Positions 28,684 to 37,236 of a stretch of 64,000 nt of DNA are shown piece after piece. A program made the position numbers and the translations under genes. The DNA is from Verrucomicrobiota bacterium (GTDB taxonomy: Bacteria > Verrucomicrobiota > Kiritimatiellia > CAIQIC01 > JAGNIJ01), in assembly GCA_022710725.1 (NCBI GenBank), contig JAKLGK010000005.1:220347-284346 (forward strand), written 5' to 3'. Numbering within the stretch: position 1 is the stretch's first letter; each line of letters begins with the position of its first letter. The notes below the pieces were generated by a model. It worked only from the letters and a program-made list of their open reading frames with translations. It was not told the DNA's origin and made no database searches.

Positions 28684-31600
28684 TCACGGCTCCGCCACGC
28701 TGATCTTGTAGAACCGGTTGGTCATCAGGTTCGGGTGCGGCGAGGTCTGGGTTCCGTTGTCCGTCCACTCGTACAGCGCGCCGGTCCCGTCGATGCCGGT
28801 CGGGGTCGCGTTGGACCACGACTGGTTCAGCAGGCCGGTGTTGTTGTAGTAGATGTAGTACTTCCGGCCGTTCGCCGTGCCGAACCGCACGATGAACCCG
28901 CTGGAGTTCCGGGCGGTCGAGGCGATCTCGAAGAAGTTGTCCTTGTCCTTCGGATCGGTGTCCGCCACCTGCTCCTGCCAGTCGAGCAGGGTATCGTCGT
29001 CCCAGTCGCTGTCCTCGTCGGCCGTGGTCAGGTTGCCGAAGTTATCGAGCTCCCACTGGTCGGGGATGCCGTCGCCGTCGCTGTCCGTGTCGCCGGTGCC
29101 CAGGACGGAGAAGCCCATCGAGAAGGCGAACGCGTTGGTGCCGAAGACCTCGACCTGGTGGGTCTGGGCCTGGTTGCGCATGGTGATGGTGAACACGGCG
29201 TTGGTGCCCGGCATATCGTCCACGGCCTGCAGGTTGAAGGCCGCATTGTGCCCGGCGTCGCCGTACCCGAGCCGGGCCTGGACGGTCTTGCCGCCGCCGA
29301 GGTTGGCCAGGGTCATGACGCCGCCGGAATGCTCCTCGACGCCGAGGGTGTTCTGGCCCTGGCGGAGGAGGTTGTCGAGGTTGGGCGAGAAGCCGTGGCG
29401 GACGTAGAGCACGCCGCCGTTGAGCGTGTTGGTCACGTTGTAGGACACCTGGAAGAGGTTGGTGCCCTGGTTCAGGGTGATGATCTTCCGGATCTTGCCG
29501 TCGGCCGAGGTCATGCGCCAGCCGTTGGTCCAGTAGGTGAACGTGTAGAGATCGTTCACGTAGTTCGTCGTGCCGGCCCACCAGTCCTTCAGGCCCGAGG
29601 TCCGGTAGGAGAGGGTCGTGCCGTTGGTGGCGACGTGGCCCGTGCCCTCGACCTCGGTCTCGACGCCCGCATAGCTGACGGGGTTGCCGAGCACCTGGCG
29701 GACGGCGCCGTCGGACGGGTCGCGCGCGAACGCGGCGGTCATGCGGCCGCCGATCCGCTCGAAGATCGCGTAGAGGCGGTCGTTGTAGAGCACGTACTCG
29801 TTCTCGCCGTCGAGGTCCACATCGGCCTGCGCGGCCTGCGGGGTGGTGACGCCGGAGGCGATGGCGGCCCAGTCGTCCACCTCCTCGTACAGGGCGGCGA
29901 GCCGGGTCTGGGCCTGGGCGGTCTTGGCGAAGTCGATCAGCGTGAGGTAGCTCTCCGAGGGGTAGAGGTACTCGCCCGTGCTCCACCGGCGCAGGTCGTT
30001 GTTGTCCTCGTTGTGGAAAGCCGTCTCGAAGACCGAGGCGTGGATCACCGCGCGGGCGAGGCGGGCGATGTTGGTGTCCGCGATGGACTCGACCTGTCTC
30101 CACGCGCTGCTGACCGCGCCGCCGAAGTAGAGCATGCCGTAGGCCTGGGAGACGTTCGTGCCGGGCCGGATCTCGAAGACCTTGTTCTGCAGGCCCTCGC
30201 GCTTGGTCGCCTCGCCGACGTACCAGTTGTCGTAGTCGCCGCGGGTGGCGTGGTTGATCCAGTCGTGGCTCTGCTTGGAGAGCGACGGCGAGCCGCGGTC
30301 GTTCTTCCACCAGGCGTTGCCGACGTCGTCGCCGTCGGTGTCGATCGCTCCGGACAGGACCTCCTCGAGGCCCACCAGCTTGATCCAGGGCCGGTTGGCG
30401 ATCCAGCGGAGGTTGCGGTCGTACGCGTCCGCATCGTCGTTGTCGCTGAAGTCCTCCCAGTTGCTGAAGATCGTCGTCACGCGCTGCTGGTCGCCGCGGG
30501 CGCGGCGGTTGAACAGCGCGCGCATGGACAGGCTCAACCCGTTGTCGGTGTTCGAGAACCGGTACTCGGTGGGCAGGTTGTTGATGACGAAGCAGTCCAC
30601 GTTGCCGATGCGGTTGATGCTGTAGCCGTTGTCGCCCATCGAGTCGGTGCGGCCGAACCAGTAGTACAGGTGCGTGTTCTGGTCGAGCACGGTGGCGCGG
30701 AACCCGGCGTTGGTGATCTTGGCGAGCGTGTCGTCGTCCAGCACGCGCTCGGGCGTCCAGAACACGCTGTTGGTGGTGAAGCTCGCGCCGTAGATCTCCG
30801 AGAGGTATTCCGAGGCCAGCCGGATGTTGTCCCGGTTGAACTCCTTGGTGAAGTACGGGAGGATGTGGTCGGAGAACGTGCTGCCGAGCATCCAGACGAC
30901 GTTGGTCGCCACGAGGCGGCGGACGGTCTCGTTGAGCGTCGGCCCGTCGCGCCAGGTCGGGCTGGCGTTCGTGTCCACGCGCGCCCACTGGAGGGAGGCC
31001 GCCAGCGTGGGCGTGACGTGCAGGTTCAGCGCCTGGCCGAAGACCTCGTGGGCCAGCAGCGGGCGGTGGTAGCCGGCGCCGGCGCCCGTGTTGACCAGCA
31101 ACTGGGCGACGTGGCCGGGCTGGTCGTGCTGGTTGCCGTGGAGGACGATCGCGGCCTTGGCGCGGCCGGCCCGGACCGTGCCGGGGATCCAGTTGTACAG
31201 CACGCTGTTCGCGCCGCTCAAGCCGGCCTGGGCCTCCCAGTAATCCTCGGCGATGTAGTCGTTCCAGATCGCGTCGCGGATGTCGCTGCGCCCGCCGAGG
31301 TCGCCCGCGCCGACGGGGTCGTTCTGCGTCCCGTCGCGCGTGGAGTAGACCTGGAAGTTGAGCGAGGCCATGCTGCCGTTCCAGCCGATCGCGGTCAGCG
31401 CGGTCCGGCTGATCGAGAACTCGACGGCGTCCAGTTCGTGGTTGTAGTAGGCGCTGCCGAAGTGCTGGGGCTGGGCCTGCACGCCGCCGTAGGTGAACAG
31501 GTCCTCGGCGAACGTGCTCGTGTTCTGGCCGGGGTTCGTGTCGACGTACACCGTGCCCGCCGACGCATCGTAGAGGGCGACGACCGCCTCCCAGCGCATC

Positions 31601-34600
31601 TCGGTCAGCGTGTCGACGTCGTCCGGCAGCTTGCGCTCGCCGATCGACTGGTTGCCCGTGTCGATGACGACGTACAGGTCCAGGTTGCCCTGCTCGGCCA
31701 GCGCCTTGAGGTCGTAGAAGTCGAAGCGGAAGTACAGCTTGCCGTCGGACGAGCCGCCGTCGCGCGCGTAGAAGGCGAGCAGGTCGCGGGAGGTGTCCCA
31801 GTCGTCCCAGGCCTTGTAGATGTCGCCCTGCTGGTTGTTGTTGCCGCCGCCCTCGTAGTAGTCGAGCGCCCGCAGGTCCGACCAGGTCCACTCCGTGAAT
31901 TCCTGGTAGTTGGTGGTGCCGTTGATCACGCCGAGGGCCTCGCCGCGGCCGATGACGATCGAGCCTTCGGGCGGCGGCGGGCTGGTGACGCACACCCGCG
32001 GGTCGGTTCCGCCGAGATAGTGCTGGTAGTTGCTGACCCCGCAGCTGGTCAGGTCGCCGTCGGCCCCCTGCCTCGTGTTCGTCGGGCTCATCTGGCCGGT
32101 CTGAATGCTGTACCAGCCGTCGTTGAACGGATCGAGGCCGTACCGCTGCTCCCACCCGTCCGGCAGGCCGTCGTCCTCGGTGTCCCGGTCGAGCGGGTCG
32201 GTCTCCAGGACCAGCAGGCGCGGCCAGACATTCGTGTTCTGCCAGACGCCGTTCGTGTAGCGCGGCCGCGGGTGGTCCGTCCACAGCTTGCTGTAATCCA
32301 ACGCGCGGGAGCGGACGCCGGAGAGCCCGTTGCCGAGGATGTTCGTGCTGTTGTTGGTCCACGTGACGACGAACGTCGTGGTCGTGCCGGCGGGCCAGAG
32401 CAGCGCCAGGTTCACCCGCTCGTTCAGGTCGGCGTCCTCGGCGCCGTCGGCCAGGTCGTCGCCGTCCGTGTCGCCGTTGTTGGGATCGGGCTCCAGGAAG
32501 CGGGCGTTGGCGGCCAGCGAATCGCTGTCCACCTGGGACGAGTTATACACGGTCGGGACGTTCGGATGGGCCAGCACGCCGGTGGCCACACCGCTGCCGT
32601 TGAGCGTGCCGATTTCCACCCGGCCGTTGCGGTTGAGGTCCTCCTGCCCGTCGAGCAGCCCGTCGTAGTCCGTGTCGGGCTTGCTCGGATCGGTCGTCGT
32701 GCCGCAGATCTGGTCCGTGCGCGACCGGTTGAAGTTGTAGCGCGAGTAGCCGGAGTTGTCGGTGGTGTTGTAGATCGGGATGTCCTGGTCGGCGATGAAG
32801 TTCTTCCACCCGTCGCCGTTGGTGTCGGTGTTGGTATCCGTGCCGGAGCTGGGGCCGCCCCATCCGCTCTCCAGGCCGTCCGGGAGCCCGTCGTTGTCGG
32901 TGTCCGGGCTCAAGGGATCCGTCCGGCCATAGACGTACCAGATGTGGACCTGGCCGTTGTTCCAAGTCTCGGGATTCGTATCCGGGAGGTTCGTCGACGT
33001 AACCTCGGGATCGTCCTGCAGCCCGTCGTCGTCGTCATCCAGGTCGTTGGTGTTCGAGTTCACCGATTGCATCAGCACCACGGTCGCGTTGCGCAGGGCG
33101 GAGGCGTGCTTGGTCGTGCCGGAGGCCGAGTTGGTGTCCGCGTGGGCGTAGAACTGGAAATGGCCGGCGGTCATGTTGGTCCACAGGAAGCCCCAGATCT
33201 GCTTGTTCCCGGAGACCGAGGGGTTCGGGTCCACGCGCCACGCCGTCTGCCCGGAGGCCGTCGCGCCCGGGTAGGTCGCGGTCAGGATCAGCTGGTTGCT
33301 CGCGACCACCTGCGAGACGACCAGGTAGTTCGTGCTGATCCGGATCGTGTTGCCGACGCCCAGCTCCTGGTGGAACAGCGTGCCGGACCCGGCGACCGTG
33401 TTGGATCCCGCCCACACGGACACCGTGCCCGTGAGCTGGTTGCTCGTCGAGGCGATCCGCGGCGCGAAGCCCACCGAGTTGGTGAACTCGATCCAGACGT
33501 TCCTCGCCTTCGTGTCCGTCTCGACCTGGACCCGGTACTGCCGCTGCGTCGGCGACGGGCTCGCCACGTCCGGCAGGACGATCTCGTACGGCGCGCCGTC
33601 GGAGTCGTACTCGGGCGGGTCGGTGATCTGGATCAGGATGCTGTCCGCGCTGGACTGGGCGCGCACGATGCGGCTGGCCTGCAGCGTGATCCCCAGCCCC
33701 GCCGCGTTCGTGTGCAGGACCTGGAGGTTGTGCAGGTAGTTCGTGTCGCCGTTGTACATGTCCGACAGCGGGATGGCCAGGGCGTGGTGGCTGCCGCTGA
33801 CGTCCCACTCGAAGTACCAGTCGTCGCGGCCCTGGGCCACGTCGTTGATCTTGAAGATGAACCGGCTCTTCAAGGTGTCGTTGTCGATGCCGTCGGCGAG
33901 CGACTGGCTGAACCAGACCTTGGCCACGTAGCCGGAGAAGACCAGGTCGCCGTCGTACTGCGGCCACGCGACGTACAGGTCGTAGGCCGGTGCGTCGGTC
34001 TTCACGTTGCGCGTGAGCGTGGTGAAGTGGCCGAGCGTGTCCGACAGGGTCAGGTTGGTCGAGGAGGAGAGCTCGCGCAGCTTGACCGTGATGGTCGCGT
34101 TTGAGTTGCCCGACGGGATGTTGCGGTAGGTGAACCGCCACTCGTCGGGATACGCGCTCGAGATGTAGAGGCTCGGCGTCACCTTATAGGCCCGCGCCCA
34201 CGAGAGCTGGCCGACGGCGTTGGTGCCGATGCCGTTCGTCTGGCCCGTGGATCCGTCGTCGTTGGTCTTGTCGCTGTCGCTGATGTTGAACCAGACCTCC
34301 GTCACCGTCGGGTCGGTCCGCACGACCGCGCCGTACTCCTTCGAGCCCAGCGTCTCGCTCTCGGCCGGGTACTTCACCTCTCCGCCGGGCCGGTCCATGT
34401 CGAGGTAGAAGGGCTGGGTGAAGGTGTTGAAGATGGACGCCTTGCCGCCCCGGTCCAGGAACGCGCGCGACCGCATGACGTGGAAGCCGTCCACGAGGCC
34501 CGTCGAGACCGTGCCCCAGTCATTGTGCGGCCGGTACGCCACCGTCCGCAGGTTGATGTTCGTCACCTGCCACACGCCCATCCGGGTCGTCTTCATGGAA

Positions 34601-37236
34601 ACGGAGGCGCCGTCGACGGGGCTCTCGACATCCCAGGGGAAGCCGTCCGAGCCCTGTTCGCGGTAAGCCCCGACCTTGTACCGAAGCACCGTGCCGTTCG
34701 TCATGGCCGGGATCGTCGCCGACCACCAGTCCGGCGTGCCCGTGCCGTCGGGCGCCCCGTTGGCGTACCACGTCAGCGGAACGACCTTCGTCGTGCCGCG
34801 CCCGAAGCCGCCCGCGCCCTCCGGCCACGTCGCGCCGTCGGTCGTGTAATACAGCGCCAGCCGGTTGACGTACGTGGACGAGTAGCCCACCTTCACGCGG
34901 ACCGTGATGTTGGAGTTGACCGCGTTTTGGGGCAGGGGGAAGAACTGCTTGGCCGACCACTCGTCGTTATCGTTGGGATTATGGTACACCCAGGCCGCGG
35001 TCTCCGCGCCGTCCCAGTCGTTGTTCCCGCTGCCCGCGTTGGCATAAAGCCCCGCGGTGCCGATCGTCATGGTATAGCTTCCCGAACCCATCGAGCCGAT
35101 GGTGTTGTGCGCCGAGTTCGTGTCCGCGAACTTCTCGCGGTGCTGCCGGTGGATGAACAGGGCCTGCTCGTACCCCTCGAACACGTCCGTCGAGCCCTCG
35201 TTGCCGGGCGGATGGTCGCGCGGGTCGCCGCTGCTGTGGTTGTTGGTGTTCAGGTTCATCCCGCCGTCCAGCTTCATCAGCACGTTCGCCGCCGAGCCGT
35301 CGACGAAGCTGACGAACCGGAGATTGGTCGACGAGGTCACCCGGGGGAGGCTCCACGTGTAGGAGTAGTCGGTGCTGTTGGCGTCCGCCGCGCCGTACGG
35401 ATTGAAGCCCGGGTCGCCGTCCGGCCCGTCGCGCCGGGTCACCGAGATGGTCCCGGCCTCCTGGCCGTTCTGGAAGATCGTGACCGGGCTGCCGCCGTGG
35501 CAGCTCCAGGGCTGGGCCTGCTCCGGGCTGCGCCAGGAGAAGGCGAAGTATCCGCCCGGCGGGACGATCACCGATCCAAGCTGGGAGGCGTAGGTGTAGA
35601 ACCCCCCGCCGTAGGTTGAGTAGTTGTAGAGGTACGCGTCGTCCACGAACGGGGTGTGGCCGAAGCCGGTGGAGATGCTGCGCGACTGGCCGGAGGCGTA
35701 GTTGTCGTTGATCATCATCAGCAGCACCGTGCCGTCCGGGTCGTTCATGCTGCCGTTCTCGCGCTTGTCCATGCGCTCGTAGGCGCAGAAGTCGCCGTCC
35801 CCCCATTTCGACATGTGCCAGCTGCGCGCGAAATGGCTGTGGATGTACGCGAGGTTCGGGATGCGGCTGTCCCCCCACTGGCCCAGGTAGCAGGTGTTGG
35901 CGTGGCGGGGGAACGCGCCGCCGCTCGCGCCCATGATCTCCGCGTGGCGGTTGCCGTCCGTGTAGATCACCGGCAGGCCCGCGCGCGTCAGGTTGAACGC
36001 GTTGTGCAACTCCTCGCGGTAGGCGACGTTGTCGTCGTGGCTCTTGGCGTAGTACACGCCCAGGTACTGGCCCATCTGTTTGCCCGAGATGTAGTCCGCC
36101 GAATCAAGCCCCGAGAGCGATCCCCAGGGGTTGCCGAGGTTGTCGTTGAACGTCTGGTGGGTCCGCGCGTCCAGGAGGCGCATGCCGGCGGCCCAGTAGT
36201 CGCCGTAGGGCGGCGGCTCGCCCATGTGCTCGCCGAACATCAGCGCGTCGTTGCGGCCGAAGGACTTTTCGAGATCGAAGACGGTGTCGCGGTGATTGTC
36301 CCAGTCGGCGTAGCCCCGGGTCATGTTGAACTGCCACTGGGCCTGGCCGCAGTAGCCCGCGCTGCTCGAATCTTTGTCGCCCGCCCACTGCTCGCCGAAG
36401 AAGTAACCCGGCACGTGCTTGACGGCGTCGAGGCGCAGGCCGTCCACCTTCGTGTGGTGAATCAGCCAGCGGACGTTGCGGCAGAGGTACCCGCCGACGT
36501 CCTCCGTGAAGGAGCCCGGGTACTGGGCGATCATGTTGGTGGTGATGTTCGTGCTGTAGAATCCCACGTAGGCCATGCCGGTCGGTGTGTAGGCCCAGTC
36601 GTACCACTCGGGGTGGGTCGGCTGGCGGACGAAGTGGATCTTCGGGTACGTGCTGCCCTCGGACGCGCCGAAGTTGGCGTTCGGGTCCTCGTGCGCGATG
36701 TCGATCAGGTCGGACAGGTTCCGGTTCTGCACTTCCCACGTGCTGCCCCAGTTCACCGTGTTGTCCCACTTGCGGTAGAAGCCGTCCTCCGTCACGCGCA
36801 GGTGGAAATCCTCGGGGGCCATGCCGGGGTAAATGTCCAGCGCCGTGTACTCGTCCCAGCCCGGCACGTCGAACGCGCGGTGGTTCATGATGTTGTCGAA
36901 GTACACGCGCATGCCGAAGCGGTGCGCGAGTTCGATCAGGCGGAGCAGTTCCGCCTCTGTGCCGTACCGGGTCTTCACCGTGCCGCGCTGGTCGATGCCG
37001 CCCAGGTCGAAGGGATCCCAGAGGTCGTAGCCGACGGAAAGTCCGCCGCTGCCCTTCTGCGGGGGCGGCAGCCACAGCGCGCCGTAGCCGGCCTCCGCGA
37101 GTTCGGGCAGCTTGTCGGCGATCTCGTTCCAGGTGTTGTTGAAATACTGCAGGGCTACTTCGGCGGGGGCGGACAAGCTCGCGAGCAGCAGGAGTGAAAA
37201 CGCGACGGTTGCGGCGCGGATGGAACGAGTGCTCAT
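28684..37236 (-). CDS. giant secreted amylase: GH13 plus GH57-like modules with TSP3 calcium repeats
   Basis: 2,850 residues. Signal peptide 1-25. GH13 domain (about 26-480): D114-N118-H119 (region I), R268 and D270 in G-L-R-L-D-A-V-K-H (nucleophile), E336 in M-F-G-E-H (candidate acid), H400-D401. Beta-sandwich modules fill 560-1400. TSP3/EF-hand-like repeats appear near 1445, 1522, 1695 and 2718 (D-T-D-N-D-G-L-P-D-G). A second catalytic region (about 1770-2600) starts with L-H-G-N-Q-H-D-Q-P-G (2031-2041) and has F-W-T-P-E-R-V with E2163, resembling GH57 motifs, then a D-V-D-L-D-G-E-N-E-Y segment like GH57 C-terminal domains. It should cut alpha-glucans outside the cell; the GH57 assignment is by eye. 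AAGGGGAAG precedes the ATG, and a LacI-type palindrome lies upstream. Confidence 0.85.
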   Translation of the reverse strand: MSTRSIRAATVAFSLLLLASLSAPAEVALQYFNNTWNEIADKLPELAEAGYGALWLPPPQKGSGGLSVGYDLWDPFDLGGIDQRGTVKTRYGTEAELLRLIELAHRFGMRVYFDNIMNHRAFDVPGWDEYTALDIYPGMAPEDFHLRVTEDGFYRKWDNTVNWGSTWEVQNRNLSDLIDIAHEDPNANFGASEGSTYPKIHFVRQPTHPEWYDWAYTPTGMAYVGFYSTNITTNMIAQYPGSFTEDVGGYLCRNVRWLIHHTKVDGLRLDAVKHVPGYFFGEQWAGDKDSSSAGYCGQAQWQFNMTRGYADWDNHRDTVFDLEKSFGRNDALMFGEHMGEPPPYGDYWAAGMRLLDARTHQTFNDNLGNPWGSLSGLDSADYISGKQMGQYLGVYYAKSHDDNVAYREELHNAFNLTRAGLPVIYTDGNRHAEIMGASGGAFPRHANTCYLGQWGDSRIPNLAYIHSHFARSWHMSKWGDGDFCAYERMDKRENGSMNDPDGTVLLMMINDNYASGQSRSISTGFGHTPFVDDAYLYNYSTYGGGFYTYASQLGSVIVPPGGYFAFSWRSPEQAQPWSCHGGSPVTIFQNGQEAGTISVTRRDGPDGDPGFNPYGAADANSTDYSYTWSLPRVTSSTNLRFVSFVDGSAANVLMKLDGGMNLNTNNHSSGDPRDHPPGNEGSTDVFEGYEQALFIHRQHREKFADTNSAHNTIGSMGSGSYTMTIGTAGLYANAGSGNNDWDGAETAAWVYHNPNDNDEWSAKQFFPLPQNAVNSNITVRVKVGYSSTYVNRLALYYTTDGATWPEGAGGFGRGTTKVVPLTWYANGAPDGTGTPDWWSATIPAMTNGTVLRYKVGAYREQGSDGFPWDVESPVDGASVSMKTTRMGVWQVTNINLRTVAYRPHNDWGTVSTGLVDGFHVMRSRAFLDRGGKASIFNTFTQPFYLDMDRPGGEVKYPAESETLGSKEYGAVVRTDPTVTEVWFNISDSDKTNDDGSTGQTNGIGTNAVGQLSWARAYKVTPSLYISSAYPDEWRFTYRNIPSGNSNATITVKLRELSSSTNLTLSDTLGHFTTLTRNVKTDAPAYDLYVAWPQYDGDLVFSGYVAKVWFSQSLADGIDNDTLKSRFIFKINDVAQGRDDWYFEWDVSGSHHALAIPLSDMYNGDTNYLHNLQVLHTNAAGLGITLQASRIVRAQSSADSILIQITDPPEYDSDGAPYEIVLPDVASPSPTQRQYRVQVETDTKARNVWIEFTNSVGFAPRIASTSNQLTGTVSVWAGSNTVAGSGTLFHQELGVGNTIRISTNYLVVSQVVASNQLILTATYPGATASGQTAWRVDPNPSVSGNKQIWGFLWTNMTAGHFQFYAHADTNSASGTTKHASALRNATVVLMQSVNSNTNDLDDDDDGLQDDPEVTSTNLPDTNPETWNNGQVHIWYVYGRTDPLSPDTDNDGLPDGLESGWGGPSSGTDTNTDTNGDGWKNFIADQDIPIYNTTDNSGYSRYNFNRSRTDQICGTTTDPSKPDTDYDGLLDGQEDLNRNGRVEIGTLNGSGVATGVLAHPNVPTVYNSSQVDSDSLAANARFLEPDPNNGDTDGDDLADGAEDADLNERVNLALLWPAGTTTTFVVTWTNNSTNILGNGLSGVRSRALDYSKLWTDHPRPRYTNGVWQNTNVWPRLLVLETDPLDRDTEDDGLPDGWEQRYGLDPFNDGWYSIQTGQMSPTNTRQGADGDLTSCGVSNYQHYLGGTDPRVCVTSPPPPEGSIVIGRGEALGVINGTTNYQEFTEWTWSDLRALDYYEGGGNNNQQGDIYKAWDDWDTSRDLLAFYARDGGSSDGKLYFRFDFYDLKALAEQGNLDLYVVIDTGNQSIGERKLPDDVDTLTEMRWEAVVALYDASAGTVYVDTNPGQNTSTFAEDLFTYGGVQAQPQHFGSAYYNHELDAVEFSISRTALTAIGWNGSMASLNFQVYSTRDGTQNDPVGAGDLGGRSDIRDAIWNDYIAEDYWEAQAGLSGANSVLYNWIPGTVRAGRAKAAIVLHGNQHDQPGHVAQLLVNTGAGAGYHRPLLAHEVFGQALNLHVTPTLAASLQWARVDTNASPTWRDGPTLNETVRRLVATNVVWMLGSTFSDHILPYFTKEFNRDNIRLASEYLSEIYGASFTTNSVFWTPERVLDDDTLAKITNAGFRATVLDQNTHLYYWFGRTDSMGDNGYSINRIGNVDCFVINNLPTEYRFSNTDNGLSLSMRALFNRRARGDQQRVTTIFSNWEDFSDNDDADAYDRNLRWIANRPWIKLVGLEEVLSGAIDTDGDDVGNAWWKNDRGSPSLSKQSHDWINHATRGDYDNWYVGEATKREGLQNKVFEIRPGTNVSQAYGMLYFGGAVSSAWRQVESIADTNIARLARAVIHASVFETAFHNEDNNDLRRWSTGEYLYPSESYLTLIDFAKTAQAQTRLAALYEEVDDWAAIASGVTTPQAAQADVDLDGENEYVLYNDRLYAIFERIGGRMTAAFARDPSDGAVRQVLGNPVSYAGVETEVEGTGHVATNGTTLSYRTSGLKDWWAGTTNYVNDLYTFTYWTNGWRMTSADGKIRKIITLNQGTNLFQVSYNVTNTLNGGVLYVRHGFSPNLDNLLRQGQNTLGVEEHSGGVMTLANLGGGKTVQARLGYGDAGHNAAFNLQAVDDMPGTNAVFTITMRNQAQTHQVEVFGTNAFAFSMGFSVLGTGDTDSDGDGIPDQWELDNFGNLTTADEDSDWDDDTLLDWQEQVADTDPKDKDNFFEIASTARNSSGFIVRFGTANGRKYYIYYNNTGLLNQSWSNATPTGIDGTGALYEWTDNGTQTSPHPNLMTNRFYKISVAEP

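Follow-up and report, generated by a model that had tools for sequence, protein, structure and literature searches.

A single open reading frame (ORF) in the window, the 64,000-nucleotide stretch of a Verrucomicrobiota bacterium contig analysed here, encodes a giant protein in which, by computation, a GH13 alpha-amylase domain with a complete catalytic triad is followed by a GH57-fold module whose canonical proton-donor Asp is lost, and this arrangement is conserved across the phylum. The reading we favour, with middling confidence, is that of one active GH13 alpha-amylase joined to a conserved, catalytically altered GH57-like module that probably binds alpha-glucan.

Architecture of the protein and fold of its two halves

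The ORF is preceded by a Shine-Dalgarno-like AAGGGGAAG and begins with MSTRSIRAATVAFSLLLLASLSAPAE, which by inspection resembles a signal peptide; the protein looks secreted, judging from this N-terminus. The features along the chain are as follows.

28684..37236, minus strand: complete ORF with ATG start, 2,850 aa, GH13-(beta sandwiches)-TSP3-(beta module)-GH57-like-beta sandwich-C-terminal tail (ORF, Pfam, homologs)
37162..37236, minus strand: signal-peptide-like N-terminus, residues 1-25 (sequence and upstream AAGGGGAAG)
35467..37161, minus strand: GH13 domain, residues ~26-590 (Pfam, PDB profile matches, triad)
33082..35466, minus strand: string of Ig/cadherin-like beta sandwiches, residues ~591-1385 (AF2, Foldseek)
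31930..33081, minus strand: TSP3-type calcium-motif spacer, residues ~1386-1769 (motif positions)
31177..31929, minus strand: beta-rich module, residues ~1770-2020 (AF2 secondary structure; conserved in homologs)
30337..31176, minus strand: GH57-fold (beta/alpha)7 barrel, residues ~2021-2300 (Pfam, AF2, Foldseek)
30748..30759, minus strand: CSR-3 WTPE with the nucleophile-equivalent E2163 (alignment of fusions)
30448..30468, minus strand: CSR-4 FSNWEDF, in which the proton-donor position is N2259, the canonical Asp being lost (profile alignment, AF2, fusions)
29092..30336, minus strand: helical part and C-terminal beta sandwich of GH57/TLGT type, residues ~2301-2715 (AF2, Foldseek)
28687..29091, minus strand: TSP3 motif and C-terminal domain, residues 2716-2850 (homolog search)

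The original prediction of one chain carrying both a GH13 and a GH57-like module held, as both domains scored over their Pfam cut-offs in hmmscan (PF00128, GH13, 44 bits against 22; PF03065, GH57, 26 bits against a curated cut-off of 21.2) and the GH13 triad is complete. This triad (D270, E336 and D401, in conserved regions II-III-IV) is invariant in 66/66 aligned homologs. The nearest solved structures to the GH13 profile are liquefying-type alpha-amylases (3BC9, 1MWO and 1HVX), which the N-terminal domain resembles, catalytic residues included, although it is divergent and joined to 2,200 further residues. The domain looks like a working alpha-amylase and is presumably active.

The two halves are joined, as had also been proposed, by beta-sandwich modules, identified with AlphaFold2 (AF2) and Foldseek, and by spacers with calcium-type TSP3 motifs (at residues 1400, 1445, 1521, 1589 and 1685, together spanning 1400-1693, with a further one at 2716). 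The region of residues 591-1385 was modelled at pLDDT 87 and pTM 0.61, and Foldseek returned generic Ig/cadherin-like matches only, with no CBM match for residues 591-1411. The beta-rich module that follows the spacer (~1770-2020) had no match in the Pfam search, and by inspection we take it to be DOMON/glucodextranase-C-like. At the other end of the protein, the C-terminal domain of ~130 aa (residues 2716-2850) recurs in many other ORFs of the same genome and of relatives, which points to a domain that Kiritimatiellia proteins share for secretion, sorting or anchoring.

The second half was examined as residues 1770-2720, for which AF2, given a 74-sequence alignment, produced a model (pLDDT 93.7, pTM 0.92) with seven barrel strands and a helical region after them. 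Its top Foldseek match was the GH57 4-alpha-glucanotransferase of Thermococcus litoralis (1K1X; E 3.4e-18, 781 columns), aligned over the barrel, the helices and into the C-terminal sandwich, with GH38 and other GH57 enzymes ranking below. PF03065 was also matched independently by 30 of the 33 GH57-region homologs (E up to 0.1; best 3.6e-11). According to the predicted structure, residues ~2021-2715 are a genuine GH57 fold, including a GH57-type C-terminal part. Given this fold and the C-terminal match, the earlier assignment is therefore right as far as the fold is concerned: both the HMM and the structure comparison point to GH57 and not to a non-catalytic fold, the C-terminal segment is of the type foreseen, and the motifs read from the sequence are in place (LHGNQHDQPG at 2032-2041, WTPE at 2160-2163).

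Distribution and genomic context of the fusion

Homolog searches covered related genomes and 84,980 species genomes. GH13 and GH57 follow each other in the same order in 60 homologs whose ORF is intact at the 5' end, found across Verrucomicrobiota; between them lie the middle modules, the TSP3 region and the beta module in the window order, and the C-terminal part comes after GH57 in nearly all of the 60. Because such full-length, same-order homologs occur in many independent genomes, the fusion is neither chance nor an assembly artefact. Fusion homologs are 2.6-3.4 kaa long and share ~42-56% full-length identity with the window protein (76% in a same-genus relative, over 2,199 aa compared). 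They come from Kiritimatiellia, Opitutia, Verrucomicrobiae and related Verrucomicrobiota; carriers include the cultured Cerasicoccus arenae, as well as Pontiellaceae bacterium B12227 and Kiritimatiellaeota bacterium B1221. In an even draw across the phylum the GH57-like module was present in 38 of 388 genomes. GH13-only and GH13-GH13 relatives exist too, as does a separate short form without GH13 (1,100-1,280 aa); the window genome itself holds the window gene, a divergent long fusion of 2,593 aa (contig C9) and a short form (contig C11). A 26,627-aa frame ending in a GH57-like module (G005:C61; L040, L057) was rejected as an artefact (72,000/80,708 bases masked N).

The gene neighbourhood in relatives supports a link to alpha-glucan. 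A further GH13-related ORF lies directly downstream of the fusion in ~20 relatives (at locus L106 with a Pfam score just under the GH13 cut-off), a classical GH13 gene is found near the fusion in 13 loci, and one adjacent GH13-GH13 protein has a CBM53 match barely over the cut-off. In the window the neighbours are unrelated (a CAAX-type protease, a UbiA prenyltransferase, an S41 protease, a molybdopterin oxidoreductase and a radical SAM protein). A neighbour gene product at L073:15492-21203 and in L083 appears to combine two different GH13 domains with a CBM53-like module, which makes it another multi-amylase giant.

Catalytic residues of the GH57-like module

In GH57 enzymes, strand 4 carries the nucleophile Glu. 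The donor Asp belongs to strand 7 and is residue 20 of CSR-4, three residues ahead of the specificity position 23 (Thr in alpha-amylases, Leu in branching enzymes; PMC6037648). In the AF2 model, E2163 comes after barrel strand 4 and N2259 is the last residue of strand 7 (2253-2259), which are the published places of the nucleophile and the donor. Profile-profile alignment with canonical alpha-amylase-type GH57 proteins (L135-L137) pairs VTTIFSNWEDFS with INLFMDYETFGE and sets N2259 on the donor Asp of FMDYETFG; CSR-4 aligned with this group only, and stayed unaligned in hhalign comparisons with branching-enzyme-type, HAN-type and secreted-type GH57 profiles because of long insertions. PDB sequence matches were few and weak (7E1Y as sole match of the window GH57 profile, at E 0.05, and none for the canonical GH57 alpha-amylase L135), so the residues were mapped onto a solved enzyme through profile alignment, the published numbering and the strand positions. 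The Asp proton donor expected of GH57 members in CSR-4, at the end of strand 7, is absent, with N2259 in its stead, and the module agrees with the definition of a GH57 'like' protein, a homolog of GH57 in which one or both catalytic residues are missing (PMC6037648).

Comparison of 85 fusions shows how differently the two catalytic positions behave. The Glu nucleophile is kept in 84, and H2033, N2035, R2164, D2185, Q2186 and H2189 are, like E2163, invariant or nearly so, with zero variation at R2164, D2185, Q2186, H2189, W2278 and W2284. Position 2259 spans 12 residue types (N 21, D 21, M 16, A 7, S 5, H 5, plus R and others), its variability is at the 89th percentile among 400 scored columns, and nothing in the 85 fusions indicated that an acid is selected for at this slot. 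The residue is Ala in the same-genus relative and Ser in the next one. Loss of the Glu/Asp pair in close relatives had been named beforehand as evidence against a second catalytic domain, and one half of that loss is found: the Glu stays, and the Asp gives way to Asn, Ala or Ser, being present in 21/85. The proposal of two independent starch-cutting chemistries is thus unsupported in the window protein, and annotation of its second half as an active GH57 amylase would be unsafe.

At the donor position, Asp is found in 9/9 stand-alone short paralogs (FDDWEA). In a tree, the Asp-bearing fusions, one of them from Cerasicoccus arenae (L106), belong to clades of Opitutae/Verrucomicrobiae type that are nested among those without Asp, and at least 7 changes at the donor position are needed within the fusions. 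As the root is uncertain and support is weak at many forks, we claim no direction of change.

In the reading we favour, the N-terminal GH13 domain would be the one normal catalytic engine of a secreted, alpha-glucan-acting protein. The GH57-fold module retains the barrel, the nucleophile Glu and the surrounding pocket and lacks the canonical Asp, a loss because of which standard GH57 retaining hydrolysis is not expected of it; most likely, this pseudo-enzyme-like module serves the GH13 domain by binding or positioning an alpha-glucan chain. We infer both the binding of alpha-glucan by the pocket and the absence of hydrolysis. A binding-only module need not keep its nucleophile in 84/85 sequences, however, a strictness that suggests some chemistry, and in the lineages of the 21 Asp-bearing fusions the module may be active.

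Less probably, the protein is a two-engine enzyme: the GH57-like module would then be catalytically active on alpha-glucan, as a hydrolase or a transferase, using a relocated donor such as E2261 in the same CSR-4 turn or another carboxylate. The near-invariant nucleophile and pocket would fit such a shift. So would the acids E2261 and D2262 that adjoin N2259, since at least one acid stands at 2259, 2261 or 2262 in 85/85 fusions and an acid at 2261 is commoner without D2259 (60/64 vs 11/21; Fisher p 6e-5, kinship uncorrected). A kinship-aware test found only 3 independent pairs, however, and left this compensation unconfirmed; four fusions have no acid at either 2259 or 2261; and E2261 is not special, since canonical GH57 proteins also carry a Glu at this place beside the working Asp (DxE). 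Should the donor be relocated or dispensable, which we consider less likely than not, the family would be a phylum-wide two-engine alpha-glucan enzyme with changed catalytic residues in one engine.

Retaining enzymes without an acid/base, such as myrosinase, are known elsewhere, and a non-standard chemistry with the Glu alone (such as cleaving, or transferring from, substrates that carry a good leaving group) would agree with a pocket that is strongly constrained while the donor slot drifts over 12 residue types; we consider it improbable, as no substrate, ligand or genomic partner indicates it and the idea is purely inferred. Least probable of all is that both engines are canonical, as first proposed: the GH57 fold and the nucleophile are there, and Asp occurs in 21/85 fusions and in all nine short paralogs, but it is replaced by Asn, Ala or Ser in the window protein and its closest relatives.

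Relation to described GH57 proteins

GH57-like proteins with incomplete machinery are already known (the alpha-amylase-like group and others, Janecek and colleagues; PMC6037648), and the window module shares their incomplete catalytic pair; what is new is the phylum-wide fusion of GH13 with a GH57-like module. The published 'like' proteins were classed from GH57 sequences alone, whereas the window module sits beside an intact GH13 domain and its family almost always keeps the nucleophile. The 4-alpha-glucanotransferase 1K1X differs from it by 14% identity, a complete Glu/Asp pair and the lack of a fusion, and the GH57 amylopullulanases of Staphylothermus (7E1Y) and Aquifex (9JLQ) share the fold but have a complete pair and no GH13 partner. 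The two families also share one alpha-glucan locus elsewhere, for example in the Pontibacter PUL, where they are described on separate polypeptides, unlike the window fusion (PMC11206854). The phrase 'GH13 and GH57 domains' turned up in one paper only, PMC5010890, where it refers to separate proteins. We found no description of a GH13/GH57 fusion in the literature searched, subscription papers and CAZy being outside its reach.

If the favoured reading is right, Verrucomicrobiota have a recurrent giant starch-acting protein that has escaped notice so far, and its members form a natural series of variants of a retaining glycosidase: nucleophile and pocket stay fixed while the general acid drifts over twelve residue types. 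Such a series makes it testable what a GH57 pocket does without its acid. The published GH57 tree left one Opitutaceae GH57 sequence unplaced (PMC6037648), and our guess is that the fusion family may explain it.

Among other GH57 proteins encountered, the stand-alone DOMON-GH57 paralogs (L037, on G000:C11, and L168-L175) keep the Glu/Asp pair and have a CSR-3 of the form His-x-Pro-Glu-Arg; L037 was not recognised by Pfam at E up to 0.001. The window genome also encodes two more secreted-looking GH57 proteins with HxHQP motifs, of ~1,300 and 1,410 aa (G000:C1, L034, and G000:C10, L035).
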